Both the position numbers and the translations under genes were made by a program. Below are positions 6,331-45,355 of a DNA stretch of 64,000 nucleotides, in pieces. The notes below the pieces were generated by a model. It was not told the origin of the DNA and made no database searches. It saw nothing but the letters and a program-made list of their open reading frames with translations. The stretch lies in contig WIUZ02000020.1 of the NCBI GenBank assembly GCA_015956445.1, forward strand, positions 707,746-771,745. The letters run 5' to 3'. How positions within the stretch are numbered: the stretch's first letter is position 1; every line of letters begins with the position of its first letter. The stretch comes from Thelephora terrestris. Its lineage: Eukaryota > Basidiomycota > Agaricomycetes > Thelephorales > Thelephoraceae.

Positions 6331-8912
6331 TCGCCACTCAGGAACGCATGCGTAAACACACTGACATCCTCAAGTACGCCTCACTCAATCCTCCTGCTAT
6401 CCCTATCCCCCTCTCCCCTGCACAATCAGGCACCCCTGTTTCCGGATGGGAACTCACGCCACAACCTCAACCCCCTACATGCCAGAAACAGGAGTCTGCC
6501 TCGCCCATCGAGATGGATGCCCAAATCTGTCCCATTACGGGACTACCCCTCTTCCTCTCCCCCTCGACCTCTCCTGGCCTCTCGTACGTGGCCCCAGAGT
6601 ACGCACAACCCACCCCCACACCCGCCCCATGAGATCAAATGTGATCTTCAATACCAACTTTTGTACCTTCCATCCTCCAGTGCCTCAATGCCCAAGTGGG
6701 ATTTGTCTCACGTGATGACAGACTGGGCTACATTCAGGAACACAAAGAACGCATTGCAGCAGTTGTCATGGACCAATCATTCAAGACTTCTGTCAAAGCC
6801 ATTGACGGAGGTGACATGTCCGGAAACCCCAAGTCCAAAGTCATCAACAGGAGATTCTTCTCTGAACCTGTATTGACAATTGAGACTGACACGATCCACA
6901 TCCCCTCTGACAGAACCGTCCATACTCTGGAAATCCCTATTCCTCCTGGCCCACTCCCCTGTGCCAACACTGCAACAATCGAGACCAGACTCACTAACCT
7001 TTCAGTAGCCGTCAATGGCCTCCTCGATAACAGCGCCATCCTCCTCCACCGCCAGGAATTCGCAATGGGACAGAACCTTGTCAATGGGGCCATCCTGCGA
7101 TCCAATGACAACAATCTCAAAACTATCAACTCCCACCTCGACGCTAGACTTGAACAACTATGTGAAGATCACAAGACCCTCCATGAGTACGTTGGCGAAT
7201 CTGCCAGACGTACAGGTCAAGCAGTCGGTCAATTGATTGATGGCTCAAATCAGCAACGAGATGCCATTCTTCGCCTAGCTGCTGCGGTCTACAACAGAAT
7301 GGACGATCTCGAACACATTGTCAAAGAACAACCCCAACCTATCCTTGACACTAAGTCTGCCATAGACTCACTGGCTACACACATGGCAGCCATGCAGAAA
7401 TCACTGTCTGACATGGAGAAAAGGCTCAACTCCCTCCATAATAATCTCGCTGACCCTTCTTCACAAAACCTCAATATCCGCACATCGGCCCCCTCTCCAC
7501 CCCCCACCATGGCAAATACCCCGAGACCTCCCACTCCCAAAATCTCAACCAAACCTCCCTACAATCCTGCAACTCACAAAACCGAGCTCAATGACGACCA
7601 ATACATCACATGTTTCCAAAGCAACCTCCACGAAGGCTTTGAATGGTTTGTCCAAAATGTCTGGGACCTAGACAATGACCACATAAACTGGTGGGCCAGG
7701 GTAGTAAGCCTCGGAAGATGGGGCTACATCAATGAAAAAGGATTCCCTACAGGAATAGGATGGGGCGTCCAAACACAGAGGAAACACAACTTCTTATACC
7801 TTTCCATCCAGCACGCTTTCGGAGGAGGCAATTACAACCGATTTCTCCTTCCCCCTTCCAGCGCAATCACTACAACCGATGAAACTGAAATCTGTAACCA
7901 GTACAACTGGCAAACTTTCAGCAGACGCTTGAGGTTCACTGACAGGCCCAAAGTTGGCCCCATCTCCATCAACTGGGCACCAGGATGGACTCGAGAGGAG
8001 ATGGTCGCCAAATCGAACCACTACAGACAGATGCTCCGGAACTCCAACCACGCCCAGTCCAAAGCTCCCTCCAACTATGACCTCCAAACCACCGGGGGTC
8101 CACCACAACAACAACAAACCAGACAGGTCAGATTCAACGGTAAACTCAACATCCCCGACACCTCCCCCCCTACCGCCTCCTCTTCGAAAATCCCCTCCAC
8201 CACTCCCACCAACCTCTCCAACCCCTTAGGAGCCGAGTTTAACACTAACGAGCTCTTTGCTCGTGTGGACCTGGATAACGATTCAGAATACTACGAGGAC
8301 ACTCACAAGGATGACAACACAGCGAAACCCGCCACCAGATCCTACGCCTCTGTCTCTGGAACGGTCAATACCCCTCTCATCTCCAAAAACTCCAATCTGA
8401 AATTCAGACCCCCTGCCCAGGATCACCGCAACATCTATGTTCTCAAATTCCCAAGAGACAATAAACCTACCCCTGGAACCCAGATCCCCCCTCCTGCTGT
8501 CATCAGCAAAATCAACACAGCCTGCAAACAAGCCTACAACATCAAGGCCATGCTGGCCAAGTGGACCCAGGCAGGCAACCTGTCTGTTTCATTCTCCCCC
8601 CAATCTTCTATCAAGAGCATCGACAACGCCTCAGGCACCATCATCAAAGAACTCCCTCCAGATTACCCTGATGTCACCTTTGCCAAACCCTCTCCCTGGT
8701 CCAAAATAGTCTATAAAAGTGTGCCCTGCAGAGCATTCACCATGGACAAAGTCAACGGTGACAAAATGGCCCACAACGCCACATGGTCCAAGGAATCTCT
8801 TCTCAAGGAAGTCAAGTCTTCTCACCCCCTTCTGACCACTGCCAAATTCATACATGACCCTGACTGGACCCTCAAGGAAGTTCCTGATGAACTTCAACAT
8901 TTCAACCTTACC
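6331..8912 (+). pseudogene. LINE ORF1, central segment
   Basis: The frame continues from 3140 (ATQERMRKHTDIL...). It meets in-frame stops at about 6630-6655 and is then open from 6681 to 8912 (VGFVSRDDRLGYIQ... to ELQHFNLT). The stops could mark decay or an intron of about 90 nt, which I could not phase. The protein has a helical, coiled-coil-like region (about 6990-7480: repeated DNNLKTI, LDARLEQL, RMDDLEH, MEKRLNSLHNNL), a Pro-rich linker, and a globular W-rich part (NVWDLDNDHINWWARVV, 7656-7695). This order matches LINE/Gag-like RNA-binding ORF1 proteins, in which a coiled coil mediates trimerisation. The segment is cut at 8912 by element X1, and the frame resumes at 11300 (FNLT-FTIEDPDG) when X1 and one TTACC are removed. 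Confidence 0.6.
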
Positions 8913-8932
8913 TGTCAGGGTTGAAGGCCTGC

Positions 8933-9556
8933 TTACTGTTTGTGGGGCGCTAGAGGATTAGCGGACGGGTGAGGGGTATCGGGTCTGGTTTTGAGGGGGG
9001 TTCCGGGTGTAGAGACGAGAGGGGGAGGGATATCAAGAGAGAGAGGGGACTCTGTCTGATAAGGGTGTACGGGCGAGTGGTAATCTTGGCAGAACTGGTG
9101 GAGTTGCTGTACGAGGGGTTCGAAGTCTTGATCGCTAAGGCGTTCGAAGTTGACGAGATATTCTATAACCGAATAAGGTAGTTCAGTTGGGATTTCCCAC
9201 CAAAGAACGATGATAGCAGGAGAGTGAGTATGGATGTTAGTGGTGAGATGAACTCGTGGGGAGGGAAAGTAAAAGGCGGGACTGATACTGAAGTAGACGG
9301 TGGCAAGGACGCTTTCGGTAAGATCCGAATTCCAAAGGAATTGATGATCGGCTCCTAGGAGAAAGGGGGGAGTAGTGACTCCGGCGTCGAGAGCGGCAAA
9401 GGGACGGTAGTAAGGGAAATGGGTGAGTAAACCGTTGGTTCGGTTTACTTGAAGACTTCTGATGAGCTTATACTCCCAGATAGATCTCCTAGCGTCAGGG
9501 ATGACTGGTCGCTGAACGGGGCTTGTAGAGGGGAAAGGGTTAGGAGCGCTGAACAT
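8933..9556 (-). CDS. X gene 1, conserved protein of unknown function (207 aa)
   Basis: An intact single-exon frame starts MFSAPNPFPSTSPVQ and ends PLAPHKQ, with its stop only 20 bp from the element terminus. A sense TATA box (TATATAA) is at 9702-9708 and the motif CGCACAGACCATG lies about 50 bp further upstream (9759-9771). The protein has a disordered Pro/Ser start, a compact middle (about residues 25-165, with RSIWEYKLIRSLQ, FLLGADHQFLWNSD and ALWWEIPTELPYS-like segments) and a Pro/Thr-rich tail. It has no signal peptide, membrane helix or cysteine motif. The X2 copy is also intact and equal in length. By hand alignment there are about 10 replacements against about 45 silent differences, so the protein was under selection. 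I do not recognise the family. Use by the element itself (for example structural or packaging) is an inference. Confidence 0.75.
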   Translation of the reverse strand: MFSAPNPFPSTSPVQRPVIPDARRSIWEYKLIRSLQVNRTNGLLTHFPYYRPFAALDAGVTTPPFLLGADHQFLWNSDLTESVLATVYFSISPAFYFPSPRVHLTTNIHTHSPAIIVLWWEIPTELPYSVIEYLVNFERLSDQDFEPLVQQLHQFCQDYHSPVHPYQTESPLSLDIPPPLVSTPGTPLKTRPDTPHPSANPLAPHKQ

Positions 9557-10216
9557 ACACTAGCAGGAGAATTCCTGCTGAAATGAGTTAGAAAGGGTAA
9601 GACGTGAGGAGAATTCCTCAGCTTACTTTTATTCAAGTTGTGGGTAGAGGAGTACAGAAGAGATTGAGAATGGGGAAAAGAAAAGAGCGAACGCTCTTCC
9701 TTATATACCCAATCCTCTACAGGAGTCATAATTCTAAGACGAACCAAACAGGGATCAACATGGTCTGTGCGTAGTTTAGGGTAGGTTGAATGAGTTAGAT
9801 CGAGGGACTTAGGGTGACGAATGGTAATTGCTAATACGGAGTTAATAGAAGAACGGACTAATGGAAGCGTCTCAGGGGATTTCTCGTGTTTCGTGGTAGT
9901 AATAGAAGCATGGGGGGGATTTCTCATGATCGATGGGGATTTCTCTTGTTTCGCGGTAGTAGTAGAAGACAGACAGGGAATTCCCATGATCGATGGGGAT
10001 TTCTCGGAATTTGATGGAATCGGATTGGGGCTGGGGGTTCATTTATCCTAAAGGGGATATTGTTGGATAATAGATTATTGTTCTCCTCTTTCGGTTTTCG
10101 TTGAGTCAAGGTGTATTTAAGTCATGGGGATAAATGATCGTTTTCCCTCATCGTCTCTTTTCCACTCCCACCAAACACCAGTACCATCTCTTCCTCTTAA
10201 ATCGTCATCCTTCATC
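9557..10216. promoter_or_regulatory. divergent promoter of X1
   Basis: A 660-bp intergenic region serves both X genes. For gene 1 there is a TATA box at 9702-9708 and CATGGTCTGTGCG at 9759-9771. For gene 2 there is a TATTTAAG box near 10112. Between them lies a short tandem array (about 9875-10010) built on GGGGATTTCTC and on ATGATCGATGGGGATTTCTC, the kind of repeat that often holds activator sites. Confidence 0.5.
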
Positions 10217-11189
10217 ATGTCTGCCTTTGACGCTAATACCGCCATGCTCAACGCTGCCGCCACCCCCTTCACTCCGTCTTTCGAGACGGACGCTCCCTAC
10301 CTCGTGGAGCAACACTTATACGACACTCCCGCTGCCATCGCTCAGGACAACGAGGCGTCCATTAGCTTCCTTACGGCCCACAACGCTCCTCCTCAGATTT
10401 GGGAGGAGGCCGGCTATGAAGACCCCCGTCTCGATCGTTTCGATGCTCCCCATGCTGGGGCAAGGCGTCTTCTTAGCGGCATGGCGGAAGCGGAGTACAA
10501 CGATCCTATCCGGGCTCGTTTGGATCACCCTGGAGTTCCTCGTTTGTTGGATGCTATGGAGCGGGATAGGGAAGATAGAATCTTTAGGCTGGAGAAGAGG
10601 ATGGATACTATGTACGTGGTTGTTAACAGTTTGAACAAGGATTTCTCTCACTTTGCTTTGGAACATTGGGGACCCTTCCAGGCATCTCTCTTCCGGTACT
10701 TCGGCCATCAATGTCGAGGAGCTTATTGCACCGACCCCCCTTGCAAGTCCCCAGTCATCCCTTCGCCACCGCCAGGATCAGGGCATTCCTCTCCCTCTAT
10801 CCCCTCCCTGGAGTCCTGCCCCAGTTCGTCAGATGGTGGAGCGATCCCAGAAGAAGAAGAACCGCAAGAATCCGATGACTCGTTCTGGTCAACGTTGTCG
10901 TCCCTCCGACAAGTCACGTCAGGTTCGGATGAAGTTGAAGGTGGAAGTGGCGGGTCTCCAGGACCGCTATGGATTCGCCTTAGTGAGTGCAGCCTTGTCG
11001 GACGTGAAGCGGGAGATGCATGATAGCCTATATCATGATGTGTTGGGGTGTAGAGAATGTTGGCAGGATCCGGTGACGCGGGCGTGGTCTTATTGTCCTG
11101 AGAGCGTTCACAACCCTCACCACTTCGCTCATCGTTGTCCTCTTCCTCAGGACTGTTCATGCGATGTTGACCCGTTTGTTCTTGTCTAA
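10217..11189 (+). CDS. X gene 2, coiled-coil protein with Cys/His-rich C-terminus
   Basis: The frame starting MSAFDANTAMLNAA runs to about 10749. It includes a helix LLDAMERDREDRIFRLEKRM and a Cys cluster HQCRGAYCTDPPCKSP. The conserved C-terminal half is in the +1 frame: MVERSQKKKNRKNP, then CRECWQDP and a C-x8-HH-x2-H-x-C-x5-C-x-C pattern near the stop. A GT-AG segment of 79 nt (10750-10828) joins the two halves in phase. The donor GTCATC is weak, so a +1 frameshift is also possible. Both halves are kept in X2 and the C-terminal half in X3. Putative zinc binding and nucleic-acid contact are inferences from the Cys/His pattern and the basic patch. The promoter region is shared with gene 1. 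Confidence 0.6.
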
Positions 11190-11299
11190 GCTTGTAGTTC
11201 CCTTTATTTACCTTTGTATTATTATTACTGCGAATGCGACAAATGTCTTGAATTATTTGTGAGATCTTGGCTACTATGTCACGCGTTCGTGACATTACC

Positions 11300-11828
11300 T
11301 TCACCATTGAGGACCCAGACGGCTCCATTGCCCTCAACGTCCGACAGTCCGAAATTTACATGTTCGCCACCGGCGTACGTGCAGTGGAGTGGACCGAGAA
11401 GATTAACCTGAAACAATGCCCAACGTTGCTGGACACTGGATGCCACTCACTCCCACTGCACAGAAGTCTGTCACCTCTGTGGCAGCACCAAACATTCGGA
11501 ACATACACACAACACCAACTGCCAGAAATGCCCCGCTTCGAAGAAACCAATTGATGAGATCAGCTCAGCCAACTGGAGATGCATTCACTTCTGCTGTCGC
11601 AGTTGTGGTCAAGCACACCCCTCCGATAGCCTGGACTGCCAATCCCGAAGCACTGCAATTGCCGAGGCCAGGAAGAAGATGAAAGTACCCATCGAACAAA
11701 CCATCCTTGACCCAAGCACCCTACAAGTCCCTGCTGCTGGTTGGAACACTGTCTCTCACCAGAAACCCTCTAACAAACACCACTTGAATGGTTGTCCCTA
11801 TGCCCTCAAACGAGGTGGAGGAATCTAA
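11300..11828 (+). pseudogene. LINE ORF1, C-terminal zinc-knuckle segment
   Basis: After the X1 insertion the ORF1 frame resumes (FTIEDPDGSIALNVRQSEIYMF). It shifts by one base near 11425 and then runs to a stop at 11826-11828. The shifted part holds two cysteine clusters. The first is VCHLCGSTKHSEHTHNTNCQKC and the second CCRSCGQAHPSDSLDC, the latter a C-x2-C-x4-H-x6-C knuckle. Such CCHC knuckles are the usual nucleic-acid binding end of LINE ORF1 and Gag proteins. The single-base shift suggests decay after insertion. Confidence 0.6.
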
Positions 11829-11876
11829 TCCCTCTCTTCCTCTCCTATCCAAACCACATTCTCTACATCCAAGCAA

Positions 11877-12224
11877 ATGTCCCTCATGTATCAAGACAAC
11901 CTCACTATGGATAACTTATTAGCCGAACTAGACCAATTTTCACCTAATATCAACAAAGACAACCTCTATGTCCCCGCCCCCCAACCTTCTTCCTCCTCTT
12001 ACACCCCCTCCTTCCCTATCTCCTCCAACCAGCTTCGGGTATGCTCCCAGAACTGCAGGAAAGACCACAAAACCATCCACTCCCTACTCAACTCATTTGG
12101 CCTGGAAACAGACATCTTCTTCATACAAGAAGTCTCCTACTATTGCATAGGAATGGATTCCCGGGGCAGTATGCCCTGGGTCCTGCAGGTTTTTCATTTG
12201 GTTCTGTCCCGCAAAAAACATTGA
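11877..12224 (+). pseudogene. LINE ORF2, start of APE-type endonuclease (truncated)
   Basis: The reading frame begins 49 bp after the ORF1 stop. It contains LRVCSQNCRKDHKTIHSLL followed by ETDIFFIQEV. This is the pattern of the N-terminus of APE-like endonucleases of LINEs (xxxQNxxK...IFFIQE), where the Asn and Glu are catalytic or metal-binding. The frame then degenerates (a second frame carries GPAGFSFGSVP) and ends where Helitron sequence begins. The endonuclease body, RT and 3' end are missing. Confidence 0.5.
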
Positions 12225-12717
12225 CTTTATCGCAGCACGTGCATGTTCTCATGACGGCGCCAGAAATTTGCAAATACCTCCTGAGAACCTAAAACAGAAA
12301 TGGTTGACCGTCATTGCCCCTAGTACATCATGAAAGGAGTGTGATGAGATAATGCCTGTGTCTGCTTGAGCACGTCTTGCCCAGTGCCCGGTCAAGCTTA
12401 AGATTGCTACTGCGCCTCGGCAAAAACCTCAACCCGTCGCGGGACGATGTTTTTCTTCTTTGTAGGCAGTCATCACTTTTACGCCATCCATCAAAACCCC
12501 TGTAGTATGCTGCGAGTGTGATCGGCCGACCGTATCGGTCCGACAAACAAGGTTTCGGCCGACACCAAGTCGAAAACAATGACTCAGTCACTCAGTACTC
12601 AACCCCGGACCGACGCTTTGTGCCGATACAGTGTCCCCTTTCCACACCTTCCGTCCTCTCTCTTCCCCACGCTTCTTTGTTTCTCTCTTTCATCTTTTTT
12701 CCACTCCCACCACCACA
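12225..12717 (+). promoter_or_regulatory. Helitron 5' region
   Basis: No coding sequence. Two related words, CGGCCGACCGTATCGGTCCGAC and TTTCGGCCGACACC, lie at 12522-12566. A pyrimidine-rich leader with CCACTCCCACCACCACA (12701-12717) precedes the ATG at 12718. Confidence 0.35.
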
Positions 12718-13098
12718 ATGAACTCCTCGTACCAAAAAATCTTTGTTGGAACCATTGCCTCTGTTCCTGTATCCATCGCCATCCAACCGACAACTGCGAC
12801 ATCAACAATCCTCCTCTCTGCCGCATATCGGCTCCAACTTCTTCCTCTGTTTAATCGCTTCGGTCTATATACGTGTGACGTCACGTTGTCTGTTCCAACC
12901 AGACGTGGTTTCTACACTTCCAAGCTCTCTCTGCAATGTTCTCACGTTTCAGGTGTAAGCGACGTTGTTCTAGGATTGGATTGGATGACAGCCTGCAGCG
13001 CCGTCCTATGTGATGACGGTTCTGAACTACTGGACCCACCACACCTCACAGTTACACCGTTTTCACCTGGTCACTATTGGTCTCGAAATGAAGGTGAA
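12718..13098 (+). CDS. Helitron RepHel, probable first exon
   Basis: An ATG after a pyrimidine-rich leader starts MNSSYQKIFVGTIASVPVS, and the frame continues through VVLGLDWMTACSAVLCDDGS to SPGHYWSRNEGE. The LDW...VLCDDGS segment is reminiscent of N-terminal regions that precede RepHel in basidiomycete Helitrons; this is from memory and was not verified. The downstream RepHel body is in another frame. The join must be a short intron whose acceptor is most likely the AG at 13126-13127, or else a one-base indel. None of the candidate donors is canonical in both phase and length. Confidence 0.5.
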
Positions 13099-13118
13099 GT
13101 TTACTTTTTTCTTCTTCG

Positions 13119-16100
13119 GTGGAACAGTCTGTTGAAAACCTCGTAGACGCGCCTCCTCCCGGTAACAATCTGATTGACACGGCACTGGCTCTTGATAAAC
13201 TTAATGAATGCCTGACAGATGATTCCACTGCCGATTGCTCTGCTTTTTTTGCTGCTCATGGTATGGATGTTGAAGACTCGTCATTGGATCGGTCAGACAC
13301 TCTTGCTCATCTATTGAATGGTTATTGTGCCAACCACGTAGCTAGTGGATGTTCTGAAATTTCTCACAATGTCAGATCACCCGTGGAGATGGCGATTGCA
13401 GTCACAGAGATGGTCATTGATGGGAACGCACGTAAGCAGATATCTTCCGAGCATCTTCGTGTAGCCTGTTCCGCAATTGGAATTCAGTCTGGTGGCTGCC
13501 GGCCAGAGAGTCCAACACTTTTGAGAAAGCTGGAACAGCGTTGTACCGACTTGCGACAGCTCTTAGGCCGCACCAATATAGAAAATGCATTTAGTGCGGT
13601 TGAAAGCCTTGGAAAACGGGCCCTTCAGCAGCTTGCTGATCAACATCACCTGGACTTACACGCCGGGCACAATGATGTCGACAATATTCGGACGAAGTTG
13701 GTTGATCACCTCTCCTCAGGTGCTTGTCAGGCATCTCGGTCCAGTTTATGTTCATCTATCCAGGATGAGTTTCAGAACACTGTGTATAGTGACCTTGAAA
13801 CACACATCCTTGGATTTGCTGCCAAAAAAGGGTCTGTTCGGAAGAAGACATTGAAACAGATTCTGAAATGTCGTGGTGTTGAGTTCAGTGGAGATGATGG
13901 CATTGGCGGTCTTCGAAAACTGTTGCGCTCGTATGTTACACAACTTCAAAAAGGCAAACAATCAGAATTATCTCGGAACCAACGCGTTCAAGATCAGTCT
14001 GAACATGAGAAGAAGTTGGGTGAGATTCGTAGCACCTGGCCACAGCCTGCTAGTATGAAACAAAAGGAGGAATGCATTCGAAATTTTCGCGCAGCTACGT
14101 CATCCAAATCCCTTCAACAATTTACGTGTGCCTGTTGTGCAGAAGCTGTGAATTCTTCTGAATGCAAAGTTGTGTCAATTGAGGATATTGACTTGAGTCT
14201 CATGCGCAACCGTACAGACCATGTCTTTGATGCCAGTCAAAGTATTCCATCCGATTTACCTTTCGTTGATGGACCACTTGCTGATATACTCGTTGATCCG
14301 AATGGTGTGATAGAGATTGAGGAAGGATTGTCACTCCAACTGTGTCATCGCTGTAGCTCAAGTCTTTCTCGAAACAAACTCCCACGTTTAGCGATCGCAA
14401 ACCTGAACGTTTTGGGGCCTGTTCCGCAGGAAATGAAGGAAATGACAATAGTTGAGGAAATGCTCATTGCTCGTTGCCGCGCCAAGCAATGTGTTGTCAA
14501 GTTGCAGGACCATCGAAATGATGTTAGTTTGCCATCATCGCAGCGTGGGTTTAAGGGTCATATCATTGTCTATCCTCAGAAAGTAGAATCACTCGCAAAT
14601 GTCCTACCTCCGCCTGTTGATGACATTGTCCATCCGATTTGTGTCCTTTTTGTTGGCTCCACACTGCCATCTCAATCGTGGTTGAAAGATAAGGCCCACC
14701 CGCTAGTCATCAGGAGAGAACTTGTGCGGCAGAATCTACTCTGGCTGAAGGCACACAACCCACTCTACAAAGATGTTGAGATCAGTGAAGAGCATTTACA
14801 AGCATTACCGATAGACGACATACTAAACTACAAGATTGAACACGTTAAACCCTCTGATAAGACTGATGCACTCGGGTCACGATATGACACAAATCCCTTG
14901 TCAGAGACTAATCAATCTGCGCCGCCTCCTGACGAGACAACACATATCCAATTCTCTAACATCGTGATCACCGACGTTGACGGTAATGCTCCTCCAAAAG
15001 ATCTCATAGCCGCTGCCTTGCGTCATTACAAACGGGGTGGATCGTTTCTTGCTGCGCCTCACGAGCCAACACCTGTGAATGAGTTTTTCAATCCAGGTCT
15101 GCTACCAATGATGTACCCTACTTTATTTCCATATGGCATTGGTGGTGCCGAGGACAGACGTCGGATGAATGCAATTTCATTCGAAAATCACGTGAAGCAC
15201 TTTCTTGCTCTTGCCAATCATAGATTTCAGGAACACTATTCGTTTATTTTTGCTGCGTTCAACATAATCCAGCGACGGAAAATGTTGCTCCACACGAGTT
15301 TGAAAATCAAGCATCCGAGATTCAAATCGTGGGCACGCAGATTCCAAACCGTTTCACCAGATGCAATTGAGAGGGTCATAGAACGATCATCTGATGGAAA
15401 TTATGCCACCGCGCACGATAACGAGGAACGAAAAGTGTTGGACCTAATGAATGAGGTAAACACAATCACTTCTCATGTCCCTGGATCTGCCCCTTCACGT
15501 GTGGCAATGAGGAATGAGATCAGAGCCTTGACAATGAAGATTGGATTACCGAGCTTCTACATCACAGTCAATCCTGCCGACGTCCGAAATCCAGTTGTGA
15601 AGTTTTTAGCCGGCGAAGATATTGACGTTGATGCATTACTTCCAGAACAGGTTCCAAATTCCTGGGAGCAATCTATCCTCATTGCAAAAAATCCCGTGAT
15701 CGCTGCACGGTTTTTTGATTGCTATCTGAAGGCCTTCATTTCGACGTTGCTCGGATATGATCCAACACAAAAGGACCTAACTGGTGGGGTGCTCGGTCTT
15801 GTGAAGGGTTACTATGGCTGTGTTGAAGCTCAGGGACGCGGGACACTGCATTGTCACATGTTGGTATGGCTCGAAGGCACTCTCAATCCAAACGAGATTT
15901 GTGACCATGTTTTGAAGGAGGGTGATGCTGAATGGGGGCAGCGGCTTCTCCGGTTCTTAGATGACACCATTACAAACATTATTCCCAGCGACCCCGATCC
16001 TGAACTTTCAATTCCCTTGTCAATTCATCACCCTTGTTCGGTCAGAGGTGTAGATCTGGATGAACCCAATATCAGCCTTCAATTGAAGTCGCGGTTGAAA

Positions 16101-18014
16101 GACTTATACCACGTGGCAAAGGAGTGCCAAATCCATTCTCATACGAAAACTTGCTACAAGCATCATAAGGCGGAACGGACCCTTCACTGCAGGTTTGACC
16201 ACAATGAGAACAATTTTTGTGAAGAGACGAAATTTGACCCAGAAACCGCCGAGATATGTCTCCGTTGTTTGCAGGGTCTAGTGAATGATTTCAATGCCAC
16301 CATGCTTGAAGCGATTCGATGCAACATGGACATCAAGTTTATTGGTTCCGGGGAATCTGCAAAAGCCATTCTCTATTATATCACAGATTATATTACCAAG
16401 ACTGAATTGAAGACGCACGTTGCATTTTCTGCCCTGCAACTTGCTGTCGAAAGACTTGGCAAACACGATCCGACTGCTGATGAAGCGACGGTCAGGGCAA
16501 AGCGGCTATTGCAGAAATGTGCTTACGCAATGCTCTCTCACCGAGAGCTTTCGGGACAGCAGGTTGCTGCATGGCTCATCGGGAGTGGTGATCATTATAC
16601 CAGTCACCAGTTTCGTCACCTGTACTGGACAGCATTTGAAGCCAACATAAATGCTGAGAACCCATCACCCAAATGCTACAAAGCACGGCGTCAGACATTA
16701 ACGGAACAAATTGATGGCCTCGAGAACGATTTGAGCACTGATACTCAATGTGATTCTGAAACAGATCGATCAGAAACACAGAAAGAAAACACCCGATGTG
16801 AACGGTCTGAGAGTGACAAGGAAGACGATGAGGAAAGTGATACCGGTGATGATGAAGAAAAGGACACAAGTGAAGATGAGAATGACGTACACCTTTCTTT
16901 CTCTCGAAGTGGCCATGTCTTCGAGCGAAGTTCTCAGGTCGAAAATTACAGGTTACGTGCAAAAGAGCTTGAAAACCTTTCGGTTTGGGAATTTGTGTCC
17001 ACTGTAGACCAGATGTCGAAGTCAAGTACACAGCAGGATTTTGATGAGGAGATAGACGATATAGATGATGAAGATGAGCTGCTTGTAGACAATGTCGATG
17101 TTGGTACTGGTCCGTACGAACTCCATCCCAAGCACAGCGAATACCAGAAAAAGCTACAACATGTTCACACCCTTCACTGGAAGCATTTGGTTCCTGTCCC
17201 GATTGGTCCTGCCCTCCCACGACATGACCGCCCTGAACTGTACCCAAAATACATGCGGTTGATGTTAATCCTCTTCAAGCCATGGCGTACAGAAGCTGAC
17301 CTACATGGGGGTATGAACGATTGGGCGCAAGCATTTGATGAGTTTGTAAAATCTTGCTCACCTGAAATAAGGAAGATGTTAGATAATATGCAACTTCTTC
17401 ATGAGTGCAAAGATTCCAAAAACTCACATTGGGCCAAAAGAAATAGAATTTTCGATGAAGAAAGGCGAGCTACACGAAGTGAGCACAATGTGGAAGTTGG
17501 CATGGAAGAGATTATGAATCACATTGATTCGGTGGATAATTACCACAATCGAGCTATTGCCGAATCCCTGGCAAACATTACAGATTGTTTGTCAGAGTTG
17601 CAAGCTGCAGGAATGTTTTCACATACCGAACGTACCGAAAATCTCCCTTCCCCAAGCATTGCGCGATCTGAGAGGCTCATGCTACCAGTCGATGACACAC
17701 TTGAAGACCAATGGAAGCATACGTATGATGACCGCCGGAATGCCTGGAAGAAGAAATTGAGTAACGCTCATGGTGAGATGCCCGCCACCTCCCCAACCAG
17801 GAACGCACAATCGTTAGCCATCATGAGTGCCACTGATGCCAATCCTGCTCCAGTTGAAGGTCAAATCATGCAGTTGGAGTTGCCATCGTCATCCGGTGTA
17901 CCTAACATATCCATCGATGAGGTAGTCAATGTGTGGTCCCTCAATGTTGAACAAGCTAGAACATTTAGGATCATCACTTCACACTCGATTGATTCGAAAG
18001 TGAAACCGTTATGA
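13119..18014 (+). pseudogene. Helitron RepHel: N-terminal, zinc-finger and Rep (HUH) domains
   Basis: The frame is open for 1631 codons (probable exon start 13128, phase 0) and ends in TGA at 18012-18014. Landmarks in order are: FTCACCAEAV (zinc-type cysteines, about residue 336), LCHRCSSSLSRNKLP followed by an IARCRAK segment, NEFFNPGLLPMMYPTLFPYG (Helitron-like N domain, about residue 655), the rolling-circle HUH motif GRGTLHCHMLVW (about residue 910), and the two catalytic tyrosines in YYITDYITKTEL (about residues 1085-1091). A long acidic insert (about 1210-1260) precedes the helicase. Rep nicks and rejoins single DNA strands in rolling-circle transposition. The TGA falls just before the Walker A region and replaces an expected Arg codon (CGA to TGA), so this copy is inactivated unless read through. 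Confidence 0.88.
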
Positions 18015-18377
18015 ATGTATATAGGTGGACCAGGTGGAACTGGAAAGTCACGAATAATCCATGCGTTGACTGACTTCTTTGGACGGAAGCAACAGTCAAG
18101 GAGGTTACGGCTGGCGTCATTCACAGGAGCAGCCGCAAAGAATATCGGTGGAACCACCCTGCACACAGCACTGTCTATGAATCCGGCAAGCAAAAAATTA
18201 GTTGGCACCAAGACACGTGCAGATTTGATTGCGATGTGGGACGGCGTGGATTATCTTCTTATCGACGAAGTTTCTATGATCGGTTGTCACCTCTTAGCTG
18301 ATATTCATAATGCTCTTGTGAACGCTACAGGACGGACAGAGCCATTTGGTGGTGTCAGTGTGATATTTGCTGGCGAC
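18015..18377 (+). pseudogene. Helitron RepHel: helicase domain, first part
   Basis: The same frame continues directly after the TGA. Walker A is GGPGGTGKS (about 18024-18050), followed by SFTGAAAKNIGGTTLHTAL (motif Ia) and Walker B LLIDEVSMIG (about 18255-18284), then GGVSVIFAGD. These are the hallmarks of PIF1-type superfamily 1B helicases, which unwind DNA during Helitron transposition. The coding sequence is cut at 18377 by X2 and resumes at 20633 with FAQLPPIGD, giving the intact GD-F-x-QLPP helicase motif when X2 and one GCGAC are removed. Confidence 0.88.
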
Positions 18378-18482
18378 TGTCACGAACGCGTGACATAGTA
18401 GCCAAGATCACACAAGTAATTCAAGACATTGGTCTTATTCGTAGTAATAATAGTACAAAGGCGGCAGATGAAAACTACAAAC

Positions 18483-19386
18483 TTAAACAAGGACAAAAGG
18501 GTCCACATCACAGGCACAGTCCTGAGCAAACGGACAACGATGAGCGAAGTGGTGAGGATTATGAACGCTCTGAGGACAGTACGAGTACGCTCGTGTTACC
18601 GGATCCTGCCAGCACTCCCTGCACCCCAACACATCATGATACAAGCTATCATGCATCTCCCGCTTCACGTCTGTCAAGGCCGCGCTCACTAATGCGAACC
18701 CATAACGGTCCTGGAGACCCGTCACTTCCACCTTCAACTTCATCCGAACCTGACGTGACGTGTCGGAGGGACGACAACGTTGACCAGAACGAGTCATCAG
18801 ACTCTTGCGGTTCTTCTTCTTCTGGGACCTCTCCACCATCTGACGAACTGGGGCAGGACTCCAGGGAGGGGATGGAGGGAGAGGAATTCCCTGATCCTGG
18901 TGGTGGCGAAGGGATGACTGGGGACTTGCAAGGGGGGTCGGTGCAATAAGCCCCATGGCACTGGTGTCCGAAATATCGGAAGAGAGATGCCTGGAAAGGT
19001 CCCCAATGTTCCAAAGCAAAGTGAGAGAAGTCATCATTCAAGCTGTTCATGATGACGTACATAAGATCCACACGCTTCTCCAATTTCGCAATCCTATCCT
19101 CCCTCTCCCTCTCCATGGCGTCCAACAAAAGGATGGCTCCAGGGTGTCCAGCTTGAACTCGAGGCCTAGAAAGCCTGGGGTCTTCGTACCCAGCTTGTTC
19201 CCAAAACTCGGCGGGAGCATTATGAGCAGTAAGGAAGTTAATGGCGACTTGGTTGTCGTGGGCGATGTTGGCAGGGGAGTCATACAAATGTTGCTCCACG
19301 TCGAAGGGAGCATCCGTCTCGAAAGACGGAGTAAAGGGGGTGGCGGCAGCACTGAGCACGGCGTTGTTGGCAACGAAGGCAGACAT
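18483..19386 (-). CDS. X2 gene 2, coiled-coil and Cys/His-rich protein
   Basis: The ATG at 19386 opens MSAFVANNAVLSAA. The frame runs through LLDAMEREREDRIAKLEKR and the Cys cluster HQCHGAYCTDPPCKSP, then switches by +1 to MVERSQKKKNRKS and the C-terminal Cys/His pattern ending VDPFVLV, exactly as in X1. Relative to X1 about 27 residues are absent near residue 75-100 (an in-frame deletion), yet both frames remain open. Keeping the same two-frame layout in two diverged copies argues for a real splice or frameshift, not for decay. Function unknown; zinc binding is inferred. Confidence 0.6.
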
Positions 19387-19983
19387 AGTAGTAATAATAT
19401 TTGAGAGAGGAGAGTAGTGCTGGTGATTGTGGGTGGAAAAGAGGCGATGGAGGAAACAATCATTAATCCCCCTGACTTAAATACATCCTGACTCAAGAGA
19501 AGAGCCGGAAAGAGAAAACAATAACCCATTATCCATTAAGGTCCTAATTAGGATAAACAAACCCTCAGCCCCGATCGCGATCCCATCAAACCCTGAGAAA
19601 TCCCCATCGATCATGAGAAATTCCCACCACGCTTCTATTACTACCATGAAACACGAGAAATCCCCGAATGCTTCCATCGACTCGCGCCTCTACTGTTCCC
19701 GTATTAGTAATTACCATCCGTCGTTCTAAGTCCCCTCTCTCTGACTCATCTACCCTACCCTAAACTACGCACAGACCATGTTGACTCCTGTTTGACTCGT
19801 TGCAGAATAATGACTCCTGTAGAGGATTGGGTATATAAGGAAGAGCGTTCGCTCCTTCTTTTCCCCATTCTCAATCTCTTCTGTACTCCTCTACCCACAA
19901 CTTGAATAACAAAGTAAGCTGAGGAATTCTCCTCACGCCTTACCTTCTCTGACTCATTCAAGCAGGAATTCTCCTGCCAGTGT
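19387..19983. promoter_or_regulatory. divergent promoter of X2
   Basis: It contains the motif CGCACAGACCATG at 19768-19780 and a TATA box (TATATAA) at 19832-19838, about 52 bp apart and in the same order and orientation as in X1. Repeats with GAGAAATCCCC lie on the gene 2 side (19590-19670). Confidence 0.5.
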
Positions 19984-20607
19984 ATGTTCAGTCCCCCAAA
20001 TCCTTTCCCCTCTACCAGTCCAGTCCAACAACCAAGCATCCCTGACGCCAGGAGATCTATCTGGGAGTATAAACTTATCAGAAGTCTCCAAGTAAACCGA
20101 ACCGTCGGCTTACTCACCCATTTCCCTTATTATCGACCCTTTGCAGCTCTCGACGCCGGAGTCACTACTCCCCCCTTCCTCCTAGGAGCAGATCATCAAT
20201 TCCTTTGGAATTCGGATCTTATGGAGAGCGTCCTTGCGACTGTTTACTTCAGTATCAGTCCAGCCTTTTACTTTCCCTCGCCTCGTGTTCATCTTACCAC
20301 TAACATCCATACCCACTCCCCTGCTATCATCATTCTCTGGTGGGAGATCCCAACTGAATTACCTTATTCGGTTATAGAATACCTTGTCAATTTCGAACGC
20401 CTTAGCGACCAAGACTTCGAACCTTTTGTGCAGCAACTCAACCAGTTCTGCCAAGACTACCACTCACCCGTTCACCCTTATCAGACAGAGTCACCCCTCT
20501 CTCTTGATATTCCTCCTCCCCTCGTTTCCACACCCAGAACCCCTTTCAAAACTAGACCCGACACCCCTCACCCTTCCGCTAATCCTCTAGCGCCCCACAA
20601 ACAGTAA
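19984..20607 (+). CDS. X2 gene 1, conserved protein of unknown function (207 aa)
   Basis: An intact single-exon frame starts MFSPPNPFPSTSPVQQ and ends PLAPHKQ. Its length is the same as the X1 copy. The stop is 20 bp from the element end, so any transcript must terminate in flanking DNA. Differences from X1 are mostly at third codon positions (about 45 silent, about 10 replacements by hand count). No domain is recognised. The middle of the protein is conserved (FPYYRPFAALDAGVTTPPFL), with Pro/Ser-rich ends. A TATA box and upstream motif precede it at 19832-19838 and 19768-19780. Confidence 0.75.
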   Translation: MFSPPNPFPSTSPVQQPSIPDARRSIWEYKLIRSLQVNRTVGLLTHFPYYRPFAALDAGVTTPPFLLGADHQFLWNSDLMESVLATVYFSISPAFYFPSPRVHLTTNIHTHSPAIIILWWEIPTELPYSVIEYLVNFERLSDQDFEPFVQQLNQFCQDYHSPVHPYQTESPLSLDIPPPLVSTPRTPFKTRPDTPHPSANPLAPHKQ

Positions 20608-20632
20608 GCAGGCCTACAACCCTGACAGCGAC

Positions 20633-21877: not shown

Positions 21878-22085
21878 GGGTCCAGACCCCAATCAAATTC
21901 GCAAGCGGTGAAGAACTGGCCAGTCTACCGCCCGAATTACAAAGCGAACTAAACGATGACAGCTTTAAAAACCCACGTACGCTTTAATCCTTTCTCTTCC
22001 CCCTTCGACGTACTCTCTCCTTACTCATAGCTCAACCTTTTTGTTTGTTTCTGTTTTAACATGCCACCCTCTTTCAAACACAGGG

Positions 22086-22650
22086 TTCAGCTATCTTTTC
22101 TCCATGGGTCATGGACCATACATCGTGACAATTCTCCATGGGTCATGGGCCATGCAATGTTGTACAACGCATTGTACAACCCATGACCCATGGAGAAAAG
22201 ATACCATTGTACAACCCATGACCCATGGGTAATGGAATAGTATCCGTTGCCCATGCCCCATGGGTTGTACAATGGTATCTGTTGCCCATGCCCCATGGGT
22301 TGTACAACACTATCCCTTCGCCATGGGTCATGGGTTGTACAACACTATCCTTTCCCCATGGGGCATGGGTTGTACAACACTACCCATTCTCCATGCCCCA
22401 TGGGTTGTACAACACTATCTGATTCCCATGCCCCATGGGTTGTACAACACTATCCATTCTCCATGGTGCATGGGTTGTACAACACTATCTATTTTCCATG
22501 CCCCATGGGTTGTACAATGCTATCCAATTCCCATGCCCCATGGGTTGTACATCACTATCCAATTCCCATGCACCATGGGTTGTACAACAGCATCTTGTGC
22601 CCATGGGGCATCAGTTGCAGAATGGTGTCCTTTCTCCATGTCCCATGGAT
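22086..22650 (+). repeat. Z1 left satellite array (35-bp unit)
   Basis: About 16 units of roughly 35 bp, each with a CATG-GGGG-CATG or CATG-CCCC-CATG core, then GGGTTGTACAACACTATC. The 10-bp palindrome GTTGTACAAC is nearly invariant. The mirror array lies at 23940-24397. Confidence 0.85.
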
Positions 22651-22904
22651 TATATCACTATTCCAGGAAAGGAGATACTTTATAAATCAACCATTAGCTG
22701 TGTGAATTTGAAAAAATTAGACTCTGTTTGTATGCATGATAGACCATATATCAGTTTGTGGCTCTAACCTAATGGAAACTAAACTTAACCTGATAATAGC
22801 CACAACCTAATCCTCAATCTAACCTGAGCCAATGTAAACTTGACCCATGAACCTAAGCCTAACCTAATCCTAAACCTGGTCTAATCCCAAATCTAACCCT
22901 AACC

Positions 22905-22962
22905 TGACCTGACCTAACCTAACCTAACCTAACCTAACCTAACCTATACCTAACCTAACCTG
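22905..22962 (+). repeat. (CCTAA)n tract in Z1 left arm
   Basis: About ten tandem CCTAA units, with a looser AACCTAA-rich border from 22770. The mirror (TTAGG)n tract is at 23613-23690 and a further copy is in Z3 at 32318-32378. The unit is 5 bp, not the 6-bp TTAGGG telomere repeat usual in fungi. Confidence 0.8.
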
Positions 22963-23939: not shown

Positions 23940-24397
23940 AATCCATGGGACATGGAGAAAGGACACCATTCTGCAACTGATGCCCCATGGGCACAAGATG
24001 CTGTTGTACAACCCATGGTGCATGGGAATTGGATAGTGATGTACAACCCATGGGGCATGGGAATTGGATAGCATTGTACAACCCATGGGGCATGGAGAAT
24101 GGGTAGTGTTGTACAACCCATGCCCCATGGGGAAAGGATAGTGTTGTACAACCCATGACCCATGGGGAAGGGATAGTGTTGTACAACCCATGGGGCATGG
24201 GCAACAGATACCATTGTACAACCCATGGGGCATGGGCAACGGATACTATTCCATTACCCATGGGTCATGGGTTGTACAATGGTATCTTTTCTCCATGGGT
24301 CATGGGTTGTACAATGCGTTGTACAACATTGCATGGCCCATGACCCATGGAGAATTGTCACGATGTATGGTCCATGACCCATGGAGAAAAGATAGCT
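23940..24397 (-). repeat. Z1 right satellite array
   Basis: Inverted counterpart of 22086-22650, with a few units fewer (about 13). The arms therefore differ in repeat number although the flanking arm sequence is almost identical. Confidence 0.8.
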
Positions 24398-25726: not shown

Positions 25727-26336
25727 CTATCCTCGAAAAAAAAATTCTCTCAAGAATGTGGCGAGGTTCTTGTCCTGATAGCTTCCCCAGTAGTTCCGTC
25801 TGTATAGTTTAGTCACTCTATGTTCAAATGTATTGTGTTTGCATCCACTGATCATACCGGATCATCCGTCAGCCACTTGAACCCATCAACTCTCAGCCCC
25901 GGGCTCTGCCGCTTGTCGGCCCTAGGCCTTTGTTGCTTCGGGCGAACCAATTCTAGGCTTTCCCTCCCACAAAGACTGGATCAGTATCTCACCTGATTTC
26001 GCACCTCCACACAGACTGTCAGGAACATGGTATTTTTAAACTTTTTATAACACGCTCTCTCTTCGAACTCTTACCAATTCTTATGTTTGAATGCTTCACG
26101 TTCCTTATCCTTCACACCAATCATTCAAAACACACACACGCGCGTACTATTCCCAGCGAATGGTAACAACATGGCTATACAAAGTGCTATCAACGTCCCA
26201 TCAGAAATCGACTTTATCTACGGCAGGCCTAAAGGTCATCAATTGTCCATCCCGGAGATCGTAGTGCTGGCCCCTCCTCACAAGGACCTCCCCGAACATG
26301 GCGTCACCATCTTCGGCACTCAGCTGAACGACTAGT
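25727..26336. other. non-coding region between Helitron-linked gene and W
   Basis: No convincing gene. TGTCAGG at 26017, the same heptamer that starts X and Y, may be the left end of a W element. A 54-codon ORF at 26171-26335 (MAIQSAINVPSEID...) ends one base before the W stop region on the other strand. It has no support beyond being open. Confidence 0.35.
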
Positions 26337-26631
26337 TCAAGCCGATAAGAAGAGATGCCTTCGAGCGGACCGATCAGCCTCCCAGATGTCACCGAACTGC
26401 GGAACACTTGGTCCCACATCTCCATCACCAGGTGACTGCTCGGCAGCACTATCGACGTAGTCGACAAGCGACCCTCCGTCTCCCTCATTGGACCCCTGGG
26501 TGGGATCCTGTCGTGCAAGGTGAAGCTGGTGTCGGAGTTGGATCTCAGACTCGACCTGTCGGTAGGGACGGTTGACCCGGTATCGGAAGGATCGTCCCTC
26601 ACCTCGACCAGACTGGTCACCATCCGACTCA

Positions 26632-27132
26632 CACTGGGGGCAAGGGCACCTGGAATTGGTGATTACATCTTGATTACATGGTGAGTTCATGTGCACTTTT
26701 CAATGATTGTAATCACCAATTCCAGGTTGATTACATTTCAAATGTTACCTTGACATGTAATCCAGCTAATGTCCACCAATTCCATTTGAAATGTTCTCTA
26801 CAAATGTTTCTGGGATGTTTTTGACCTGTCAGCACAAATGATACTGCAATGTAGTCAACATGTTCTTTGATCGTCTGAGATGTAATCTAAATGCGCTCAA
26901 AAACATGAGATGTTTTCACAATGTACCCAGTGGGCACATTCAGGAAACATTGCTTGGGAACATGTTGAGGAAATTTCAAATGGAGTTGGTGGGCACAGTT
27001 GAATTACATGTCAAGGTAACATTTGAAATGTAATCAACCTGGAATGGGGAATTACAATCATTGAAAAGTGCACATGAACTCACCATGTAATCAAGATGTA
27101 ATCACTGATTCCAGGTGCCCCTGCCCCCAGTG
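26632..27132. mobile_element. V2, CACTA-type MITE
   Basis: 501 bp, the same length and sequence family as V1, ends CACTGGGGGCA...TGCCCCCAGTG, TSD TCA (26629-26631, 27133-27135). It is inserted in the last exon of W, whose frame closes on removal. Confidence 0.85.
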
Positions 27133-27712
27133 TCAACTGGTCGAGGGTAAGGATTAGCTGATGCGGTCATGCGATGAGCAGGACGGCGTCGAGAGCGTTT
27201 GCAACGTTGCCCCTTAGTCACCAGACGTACCTCGGCAACTCTTGGAGCATCTTCGGCCCGGTCAACTTCCATGACCTCATCCTTGATCTTGACCAGCTGA
27301 TGGATCGGCTGCAGGATGCAACACCCACAGTTCTCCTTGTCGGACACGGCCAGAGTAGAAGCCGGAGCCGGAGTCGGAACGGGAACCACGTTCTCAATCG
27401 GAGGTGTCGCATAGGACGACGGGTTAGGCGACGGGAGTACCACCTCGTCGGCTTACTCCAACTCGAACGGAGCGTCGGCTGTCCCCTGACCAACCAACAC
27501 CGGACCCTCCTTGCAGTTGCAGGTCTTGTCCTGCAAGGACGTGACCTGCGCCGTCAACACGGCCACCACGTCTTCGAGCTGTTCAGTCTAGAAGAAGTCT
27601 CTCAGTCATTGCATAAACCTGCAAAGGCTGAAAGTACCTTTTCATCCCTCCTGGCCAACGCACCCTTGATGTTGTTGTCCCGAACCTTCAGGCCGGCGAT
27701 CAACTCTTGATG

Positions 27713-27999
27713 CACTGGGTCCAGGATAGGATAGGTTTCTGGGGATTATTCTAAATAATATTCAGAATATAATTAGAATAATAAACATGTCTTATTTTAA
27801 ACATATTCTAGCCATATCCTAGGATTATTTTATTCAAATCTGATGCCCAGAGCCAACTCTGCTGAGAGTTCATTTGCATTTGCATATTCCTTGAATGTGG
27901 GCAGAATCTGTTTTGAAAATAACACATTTATTATTTTAATTATATTCAGAATATTGATTAGAATAATCCCCCAAAACCTATTCTACCCTGGACCCAGTG
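27713..27999. mobile_element. T, small CACTA-type MITE
   Basis: 287 bp, terminal inverted repeats of about 70 bp starting CACTGGGTCCAGG and including GGATTATTCTAA, TSD ATG (27710-27712, 28000-28002). The interior is AT-rich (TTCAGAATAT, TAATTATA). It is inserted in exon 3 of W. Confidence 0.8.
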
Positions 28000-28501
28000 A
28001 TGGTTGGCAACCATTGCCTCCAACGCCTCGTTCGTTCCCTGCTGGAAGGCAGCCAAGGTCTCCTTCATCTGAAGACCCTCCGCTGACAGACGAAGGACGT
28101 CTGCCTTTGCCTCTTTCACCTCGCGCTCCAATCGTTCAACCTAGGCAGTTTGATTAGTCGAGAGTCATACTCAAATATTCAAACGGAGAACCTACCCGGC
28201 TTTCCCCCTCCCGAACAAGCGACCACAAGAGACTGGTGGAAGCGGTAGCATGGCGGACGGCCCGAGGAACGGTTGCCCCATGCTCCAACAGGTCCTGATC
28301 ATAGATCCCCCTTTGCAGGGTATACCAGAGCTCCTTCTTGATCGGATGCTCCAGCTCCCCAAACCTACCCCTCATCTGGAAGGCCACCTTCTCGGCGATC
28401 ATGGTACGGACCCAGAGCTCATTGTCCCAGGTCAACCCCATCAGATGTGGGATCGTCTCCCTGAGACGTTCGGCGTCCACCTGATTGACGACCTCCAAGA
28501 T

Positions 28502-28599
28502 CTAGAAGCTGTTAGCTCGACCTCAATGCCGAAAGAACGAACCTCTACCTAGAGGAAGGCGTTAGCGCTAATACAAGAAGCCCTAGTTCTCCCCCATAC
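28502..28599 (-). other. tandem introns in W with zero-length exon
   Basis: Exon 1 of W is followed by two complete intron-like units back to back: 28599-28549 (51 nt, GTATGG...GCTAAC...CTCTAG) and 28548-28502 (47 nt, GTAGAG...GCTAAC...TTCTAG). Removing both joins TTDDQ to ILEVVNQV in phase. The AG/GT junction at 28549/28548 would work as a recursive splice site. Confidence 0.5.
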
Positions 28600-28731
28600 C
28601 TGATCATCCGTGGTATAGGGAGTCCCCGCCGCATTGGCGTAGGTCTTGCGAGCGGCGGCACAACAGTCGATACAGGAGATGGTGGAGATGCCGTTGGCGA
28701 CTTTGTATGTGTGGTTGTTTGGGAAAGACAT

Positions 28732-29242
28732 TTGGTGAGATGATGGGGAAGTTGCTGGTGTTGCTGATCAAGGATGGCTCCAAGAAGATGTCCTTCTTAT
28801 AGCCTAGGTGGGTGATCCTTCACGTGACCTACCTCGACAAACCTCATTGGTCCAGGTCACATCAACTTCTGCCCCTGTACCATCATCGTTGGCTTACTAC
28901 ATCAAGCTGACACCTCGGCCCGCGGGTCGGCCTTGGAAGAACTTCGTTCCGGAACGCCTAGAACACGCGCGCACTAAAAATAGGTCTCAAGACCCTGATG
29001 ACCCCTTCATGACATCATGACCCCCTTTTACGACCCCTTATGACATCATGATAACGACCAACCCTGGACCCTGATCACACACGTGGGCACAGGGTATCAA
29101 CATTTGGACACTGTGCTTCTAATCGGATAGTAACCCTATCTGATCTAGTTGTGCTTTGGAAGCAGAGTAGGCCTGAGCCGAAAAAGGCGGCCGAAGAATA
29201 TAATCCCTGGTGCCACTTAGGAAGAACGATATTCCCGGGTGC
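28732..29242. other. W promoter side and intergenic DNA
   Basis: TATAAG at 28796-28801 (minus sense) lies about 65 bp upstream of the W start. The rest holds repeats of ATGACATCATGA and GACCCCTT (29005-29055) and no gene. Confidence 0.4.
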
Positions 29243-29712
29243 TGTCACGAACGCATGACATATTGTCCAAAATCACACAGATAATTCAAGACATTGTTCG
29301 TATTCCTGGTAATAAGAGTACAAAGCGAAGTAACAAGTATTACAAAACTAAACCAAGACAAAGGGGTCTACGTCGCAAGGACAGTCCTGGGGAAACGGGC
29401 AACGATGAGCAAAGTGGTGAGGATTATGTACGCTTTGAGGACAGTACGAGTACTCCCGAGTTACCGGGTCCTGCCAACACTCCCTACACCCTAACACATC
29501 ATGAAACAAACTCTCATGCATCTCCCACTTCACGTCCGTCAACGCGTTGCTCACTAATGCGAACCCATAGCGGTCCTGAAGACTCGCTACCTCCACCTTC
29601 AACTTCATCCAAACCTGACGTGACTTGTCGGAGGGACGACAACGTTGACCAGTACGAGTCATCGGATTCTTGCGCCCTTTCTTCTTCTGGGTCCTCTCCA
29701 CCATCTGACGAC
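29243..29712 (-). pseudogene. X3, fragment with the C-terminal part of X gene 2
   Basis: It starts with the X end TGTCACGAACGCATGACA and matches X2 from 18378 to about 18840. The reverse strand encodes MVERTQKKKGRKNP, DRYGFALVSNALTDVKWEMHES, CRECWQDP and the Cys/His end VDPFVLV without a stop. Homology ends abruptly near 29712, so the promoter, gene 1 and the other terminus are gone. Many changes from X1 and X2 are silent, so this copy also diverged under constraint before truncation. Confidence 0.7.
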
Positions 29713-45315: not shown

Positions 45316-45355
45316 GGAGGTGACGTTCTGAACCGGTCCGGCGTGGGTTCCAAAA
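45316..45355 (-). promoter_or_regulatory. gypsy leader with primer-site candidate
   Basis: Reading from the 5' LTR inward, the sense strand begins TTTTGGAACCCACGCCGG. TGGAACCCACG has the TGG start expected of a site that pairs with a tRNA CCA end. I cannot name the tRNA. Confidence 0.4.

Follow-up and report, generated by a model that had tools for sequence, protein, structure and literature searches.

Units of Thelephora terrestris built like a gene-bearing long terminal repeat and seen as solo copies

The question raised by this 64,000-nucleotide stretch of Thelephora terrestris DNA (contig WIUZ02000020.1, positions 707,746 to 771,745; hereafter the window) is what kind of mobile unit ends in TGTCA...TGACA, stands between 5-bp target-site duplications (TSDs) and carries conserved genes with no recognisable transposition enzyme among them. 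Two complete copies of such a unit, here called X, were reported in a preliminary description, which proposed either a long terminal repeat (LTR) with genes of its own or a cargo mobilised in trans. Both proposals remain, and the first gains support from the gene-bearing 2.9-3.3-kb LTRs of two resident chromoviruses, Y and Z, and from signals in X resembling those of U3 and R. In our view X has the build of a Gypsy-type LTR with genes of its own, and most likely is one, known here only from solo copies; we give this reading about an even chance. Formal membership as an LTR is not claimed, as direct repeats around an internal region were sought and not found.

The X units in the window

8913..11294, minus strand: X1, complete unit of 2382 bp, ends TGTCA...TGACA, with the family 'left' end (TGTCACGAACGCGTGACA) at 11294
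8908-8912 and 11295-11299: TSD of X1, TTACC, exact 5-bp duplication
18378..20627, plus strand: X2, complete unit of 2250 bp, ends TGTCA...TGACA
18373-18377 and 20628-20632: TSD of X2, GCGAC, exact 5-bp duplication
29243..29711, plus strand: third X copy, left 469 bp only (truncated), adjoining an interrupted Y copy

The coordinates and duplications first reported for X1 and X2 are exact. The two units lie in opposite orientation. Their two main blocks align at 88.6% and 86.8% identity and a third block at 78%, and the terminal inverted repeat (TIR) of the units is limited to the 5 bp TGTCA. A search of the window for TGTCA...TGACA pairs flanked by a 5-bp TSD returned X1, X2 and one further pair, with a mean of 0.9 in 20 shuffles, so the case for the two units is carried by their shared sequence and their empty sites, not by the TSD alone. 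Removal of the unit and one TSD leaves a frame that reads through at both sites, with 840 amino acids between stops for X1 and 535 for X2, as had been claimed for the host frames. At the X2 site VIFAGD and FAQLPPIGD join in a string that spans the empty-site junction, together with VIFAGDFAQLPPIGD, and on the reading of this string the joined frame appears helicase-like. The 535-residue frame continues beyond the N-terminal open reading frame (ORF) of a Helitron. This Helitron, with DUF6570 and Helitron_like_N, occupies 13119-18014 and runs on into the frame past X2, so that X2 interrupts its downstream helicase-like frame.

The X family in the genome

The genome searched comprises 40.6 Mb in 60 contigs, the window lying on contig 13. 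While the two copies described earlier are both real, they belong to a family for which a pattern search allowing up to 3 mismatches finds 219 left ends and 320 right ends; reversed control patterns gave no matches genome-wide under the same limit. The loci from the first X search are biased toward X2-like copies. Thirty-one complete units of 2.2-2.5 kb serve as the sample for the gene, selection and signal counts that follow.

An exact 5-bp TSD flanks 29 of these 31 units (L002 is off by one base and L006 has no match), and also a longer unit with a nested insert (L032) and all 21 further units in which both ends were found (strand-matched pairing of 22 units, one without a found left end; one mis-listed pair from two contigs was omitted). 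Altogether 51 of the 53 units with both ends recognised have their own exact TSD. Ends were recognised by pattern, which favours well-kept, young copies, and older ones exist. The TSDs show a weak, symmetric preference for G as their first base and C as their fifth. For G and C respectively, p is 1e-5 and 0.016 among 96 right flanks and 1e-4 and 0.001 among 83 left flanks, the two sets coming partly from identical units; 30 bp away from the junctions the bias is absent. Such a preference is what would be expected of an integrase acting symmetrically.

Leaving out L006, the 5-base TSDs of 52 units contain one mismatch in all, so the insertions must be young. Among the 31 units, the divergence from the nearest neighbour has a median of 8.8%, and one pair is below 3%. 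The best other genome matches of X2 reach 90-91% over the full length and 94% over part of it (40 of 405 candidates scored), and those of L018 reach 87% and 93%, respectively (40 of 399 candidates scored). For nearly all X units examined, close source copies were not found in this genome; they may have been lost, or may be carried elsewhere in the population. Parsimony counts on the gene 1 tree give a ratio of replacement to silent change (dN/dS) of ~0.10 on terminal branches and 0.058 on inner branches, and a calculation from this higher tip value would put the share of tip divergence that arose without constraint at only about 5%.

We also noticed one X unit nested inside another, near its right end (C6:233727-238293; L014, L022). 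Another locus, L079, holds a cluster of several old X copies in both orientations, 70-76% identical to X2, and the family is thus much older than its young insertions.

Gene 1

8933..9556, minus strand: X1 gene 1, 207 amino acids
19984..20607, plus strand: X2 gene 1, 207 amino acids

Gene 1 is under strong purifying selection. Between X1 and X2 there are 12.5 replacement and 55.5 silent differences (dN/dS = 0.051), close to the hand count of about 10 and about 45 given previously. Over the 465 pairs from the 31 copies, the medians are dS = 0.71, dN = 0.043 and dN/dS = 0.065, far from the value near 1 that would have spoken against coding selection, and the same bases read in the two shifted frames give median ratios of 2.1 and 2.8. 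The length is exactly 207 codons in 26 of the 31 copies; two copies are clearly broken (L012, L078), three have other lengths, and in-frame stops occur in 3 of 31. A chance origin of the X pattern is ruled out by the shared units, the empty sites and these shifted-frame controls. In X1 and X2 alike, the stop codon lies 20 nucleotides (nt) before the unit end, so the message of gene 1 must end outside X.

The earlier statement that X has no recognisable transposition enzyme is borne out in Pfam and PDB sequence searches. Neither gene 1 nor the gene 2 frames have a Pfam match at cut-off (best E 0.05), no Pfam integrase or transposase match occurs in the X frames, and PDB sequence profiles gave nothing significant against the X proteins (best E 0.23 and 0.45). 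Relatives in database searches come from T. terrestris and from JGI/ENA/other entries, down to 70% identity for gene 1 and 38% for gene 2. In annotation the X proteins are listed as 'hypothetical proteins' of the host.

Gene 2 and its 70-nt intron

10217..11023, plus strand: X1 gene 2 frame A (intron retained), 268 amino acids from the family start MSAFDAN; the ORF is open for 31 codons further upstream
10612..10681, plus strand: X1 gene 2 intron, 70 nt, GTACGT...CCAG, read through by frame A without a stop
10682..11189, plus strand: X1 gene 2, exon in frame B with the end DVDPFVLV; the product after splicing has 300 amino acids
18649..19386, minus strand: X2 gene 2 frame A (intron retained), 245 amino acids
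18991..19060, minus strand: X2 gene 2 intron, 70 nt, GTACGT...CCAG
18483..18990, minus strand: X2 gene 2 frame B exon; spliced product of 277 amino acids with a Cys/His-rich end

X had been described as carrying two divergent genes. Of these, 'gene 2' consists of two overlapping frames joined by an intron, and X2 gene 2 accordingly reads as 245 amino acids with the intron kept and 277 with it removed. A single ORF is ruled out, as the stretches under constraint differ between frames A and B. Frame A has a median dN/dS of 0.05-0.12 in its first three 150-nt stretches and remains constrained through the intron (0.05 in element positions 560-709), and frame B has 0.09-0.11 in its last two coding stretches. 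Where the two overlap, at element positions of about 410-559, both have few silent changes (dS about 0.08); the ratio there is 0.61 in frame A and 0.33 in frame B. In positions 260-409, where frame A stops, its ratio is 1.17, so that no constraint is demonstrated on its last part.

The 70-nt intron is found in all 30 copies scored of the 31; its donor begins with GT in 29 of 30 and its acceptor ends with AG in 30 of 31. The spliced product is exactly 277 amino acids in 20 of 30 copies, and the usual ...FVLV end is reached by 24 of the 30 spliced products and missed by 6. Among the gene models read, which were from NCBI or from this genome, five have the 70-nt splice (P0033, P0039, P0040, P0041, P0044) and four keep frame A (P0014, P0019, P0020, P0022). 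These conserved sites and frames point to the use of both the retained and the spliced form in living cells, which we infer from sequence.

A non-coding element, whether a miniature inverted-repeat transposable element (MITE) or the debris of solo LTRs, is ruled out by the median dN/dS of 0.065 in gene 1 and by values of 0.05-0.12 in those parts of gene 2 that are read mainly in one frame.

LTR-like signals and ends

9699..9707, minus strand: X1 TATATAAGG, upstream of gene 1
9628..9633, minus strand: X1 AATAAA in the leader of gene 1, 74 nt downstream of the start of the TATA
19832..19840, plus strand: X2 TATATAAGG; the downstream variant is AATAAC, not AATAAA

An LTR-like TATA box (TATATAAGG) precedes gene 1 in 31 of 31 X copies. 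It is followed at +73 to +76 by AATAAA in 23 of them and by one-base variants in the other 8, and the whole plus strand of all 31 units holds only 38 occurrences of AATAAA. The order of TATA and AATAAA and the gene 1 stop near the unit end would both be more natural in an LTR than in a pair of genes standing on its own. Between the place of AATAAA and gene 1 there are also two short palindromes, TGAGGAATTCTCCTCA and GCAGGAATTCTCCTGC, both perfect, at 19920-19977 in X2 and at the matching place in X1.

The TGTCA/TGACA ends fit the TGTNR rule for the ends of Gypsy LTRs, as stated in PMC2836005. The right ends of X, Y and Z have TGTCAGGG in common. X and Y are alike at 9 of 10 bases on the left (TGTCASGAAC) and at the first 8 on the right; the likeness on the left may be chance, since Z differs there.

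The chromoviruses Y and Z

26017..29243, plus strand: Y, interrupted and incomplete copy, gene-bearing LTR of the resident chromovirus
L032:1488-4810: Y LTR copy
L034:4094-7383: Y LTR copy
L142:69-3002: Z LTR copy

Y is a unit of 3.3 kb with the same TGTCA/TGACA ends as X, found inside an X copy with its own 5-bp TSD (L032) and with another 5-bp TSD at L034. On three contigs, Y copies stand in direct repeat 9.3 kb apart, and the one such interval read (L141) encodes a gag of 484 amino acids and a 1272-residue pol with protease, reverse transcriptase (RT), RNase H, integrase and chromodomain. These direct repeats around gag-pol identify Y as the LTR of a Ty3/gypsy chromovirus. Genome-wide there are 411 left ends of Y and 8 copies of its pol at 99-100%, one with a stop, and Y LTRs were seen on both sides of 4 of the 8. 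The second chromovirus, Z, has a pol 63% identical to that of Y in 3 copies, one with a stop, and an LTR of 2934 bp in the one copy read.

The LTRs of Y and Z each carry an antisense, apparently multi-exon gene, whose frames are 35, 36 and 33% identical between the two, and 23% in the last frame. In ten pairs of Y copies (one joined row omitted, some rows with stops or gaps), dN/dS is 0.08-0.16 in the 114-residue exon (dS 0.27-1.39), 0.05-0.25 in the coil exon and 0.21-0.46 in the first overlapping frame. The upstream exons of Y are thus under purifying selection, and the second overlapping frame is only weakly constrained, if at all. In place and strand this gene matches gene 2 of X; we read the match as a likeness of plan and not as demonstrated descent.

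What X is

According to the reading we favour, X would be a gene-bearing U3-R-U5 LTR of the Ty3/gypsy kind, inserted by a Gypsy-type integrase, and the copies seen here would be solo units whose internal gag-pol was lost through LTR-LTR recombination. Gene 1 would be read outward from the TATA box into a message running past the unit end, and gene 2 from the central region, antisense to the TATA-driven strand, giving two proteins by keeping or removing the 70-nt intron. The genes would be accessory, possibly regulatory, genes belonging to the repeat itself, as in Y and Z.

A search for the internal region gave evidence against this reading. The check suggested earlier, for two X units in direct repeat around a retroelement, came out negative within what was covered: of 180 integrase or pol positions (144 integrase matches and 36 of 58 pol matches, some elements being counted twice), none is bracketed by X units in the same orientation when 200 of the 320 right and 100 of the 219 left ends are set against them, and 51 of 53 units have a TSD of their own. 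The census contains 19 one-sided cases, in 14 of which the adjacent X unit has its own TSD; the five without a demonstrated X TSD are at C11, C12:1292675, C13:567132, C17:33635 and C56. No sequence at the junction is common to two flanks among 96 right and 83 left ones, a test that needs two like copies and is therefore weak for rare full elements, and in a BLAST of 74 right flanks the common stretches were host repeats, none starting at the junction in register. Purine tracts to the left of X are not in excess (7 versus 9 at a control offset). Among the X loci examined, Y-type gag/pol occurs only at L077, beside Y, and there is additionally a 24% match to the other Gypsy-type element of the window. 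That element, at 34563-46658, has LTRs of about 1.3 kb that are 98% identical, and pol and protease ORFs on the minus strand. Direct X repeats around gag-pol with a primer-binding site and a purine tract were thus not found in the 180 positions and the 96 and 83 flanks, and an X-flanked Gypsy element in this assembly seems unlikely. If X followed Y, which has 411 left ends and 8 pol copies at 99-100%, its 219-320 ends should include those of some full elements.

Other points weigh in the same direction. Eight of the 31 copies, X2 included, have no perfect AATAAA; the second overlapping frame of Y has a dN/dS of 0.35-1.10 in the ten pairs; five profile comparisons of X proteins with the Y/Z LTR gene, made with shallow alignments, gave probabilities below 1%; and neither Y nor Z showed a gene corresponding to gene 1.

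These results make room for a different, rather doubtful view, in which X is a complete, self-standing 'retro-satellite' of 2.3 kb with neither a second LTR nor RT nor integrase, whose LTR-like ends are taken by the integrase of a chromovirus (Y or Z). Its set of three proteins, one pair overlapping with an intron-retention switch, might then serve its own copying or its access to the chromovirus machinery, a role that is equally tentative. The units examined indeed stand alone, with no internal region, integrase or pol found between X pairs, their proteins are conserved across lineages as expected of functions needed by the unit, and the ends of X and Y are alike, with the reservation made above about the left end. 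The insertions are also very young relative to their divergence, yet full-length parents were not found. However, an LTR accounts better for AATAAA following TATA and for gene 1 lacking its 3' end, the 411 left ends of Y likewise far exceed its 8 pol copies, and we know of no way in which a one-LTR unit could be copied through RNA.

An autonomous DNA transposon, with a recombinase of unrecognised type in gene 1 or gene 2, is improbable in our view. Orphan proteins under strong purifying selection with no significant Pfam or PDB-sequence match could conceal such an enzyme, and the scarcity of near-identical copies would fit cut-and-paste, but proteins of 207, 245 and 277 amino acids are short and without a Pfam integrase or transposase match, the TIR has only 5 bp, and the 3' end of gene 1 is absent from the unit. 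Hardly any credence is left for ordinary solo LTRs or MITE-like repeats with accidental open frames. Solo LTRs with a 5-bp TSD are common in fungi, and some X copies have decayed, as the gene 1 stops and the 6 spliced gene 2 products lacking the usual end show; against this stand the gap between 0.065 and about 2.1 and 2.8 in the gene 1 frames, the constant 207 codons in 26 of 31 copies and the 70-nt intron in every copy scored. The gene-bearing LTR therefore remains our preferred reading.

Other features of the window

A near-perfect palindrome of about 1.36 kb lies at 46965-48326 (98% identical to its own reverse complement). A 35-bp tandem repeat forms long arrays at 22075-24400 and 30660-32080, one of which is open in three forward frames simultaneously (460, 432 and 421 amino acids).

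Comparison with known systems

The closest parallels to X are in the same genome. Y and Z share with it the TGTCA...TGACA ends, the 5-bp TSD (two Y copies), the unit size of 2-3 kb and an antisense gene with overlapping frames; they differ in having pol attached in some copies, in an LTR gene without detectable homology to X and in showing no sense gene like gene 1. In the open-licence literature searched, neither genes inside fungal LTRs nor X itself were found, and within that literature the location of genes in the repeat, with an overlap switched by splicing, seems to be new.

Among LTR elements elsewhere, Boty of Botrytis, with brtn, is reportedly one with an antisense ORF. Maize Grande, rice RIRE2 and Silene Retand are LTR retrotransposons with additional antisense ORFs between pol and the 3' LTR, according to PMC7264820. 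They resemble X in an antisense accessory gene of unassigned function within an LTR retrotransposon, and differ in its location, X having two genes inside the LTR-like unit itself. The Ginger DNA transposons, including TDD-4 and TDD-5, have TGTNR ends, a 4-5-bp TSD, TIRs of about 40-270 bp and an encoded Gypsy-type integrase, as described in PMC2836005. X is like these in its TGTNR ends, its short TSD and a Gypsy-type integrase as the implied enzyme, and unlike them in having neither an encoded integrase nor such TIRs. X does not fit the Ginger elements, as it has no Gypsy-integrase-like Pfam match and only TGTCA is inverted.

The non-autonomous elements known as terminal-repeat retrotransposons in miniature (TRIM) and large retrotransposon derivatives (LARD) have two LTRs and are not known to carry conserved genes; they resemble X in being without their own RT or integrase, and differ from it in both of those features. 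Retroviral genes in or driven from LTRs are represented by sag of mouse mammary tumour virus (MMTV) and HBZ of human T-cell leukaemia virus type 1 (HTLV-1). These share with X the protein-coding use of an LTR and antisense transcription; they belong to LTRs of complete retroviruses, with no sequence relation known to X. In HTLV, an antisense promoter lies in the 3' LTR, as reported in PMC7264820.

LTRs are normally viewed as control DNA and solo LTRs as debris, whereas in this single fungus both X and the LTRs of Y and Z bear conserved genes whose frames overlap. Should X be an LTR, counts of solo LTRs hide a gene-bearing lineage of retroelements with its accessory genes in the repeat; should it stand alone, it would be a parasite exploiting a retrotransposon in a new manner. 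As near relatives are missing for almost all copies examined despite their young insertions, the source of new copies is a question that can be tested.

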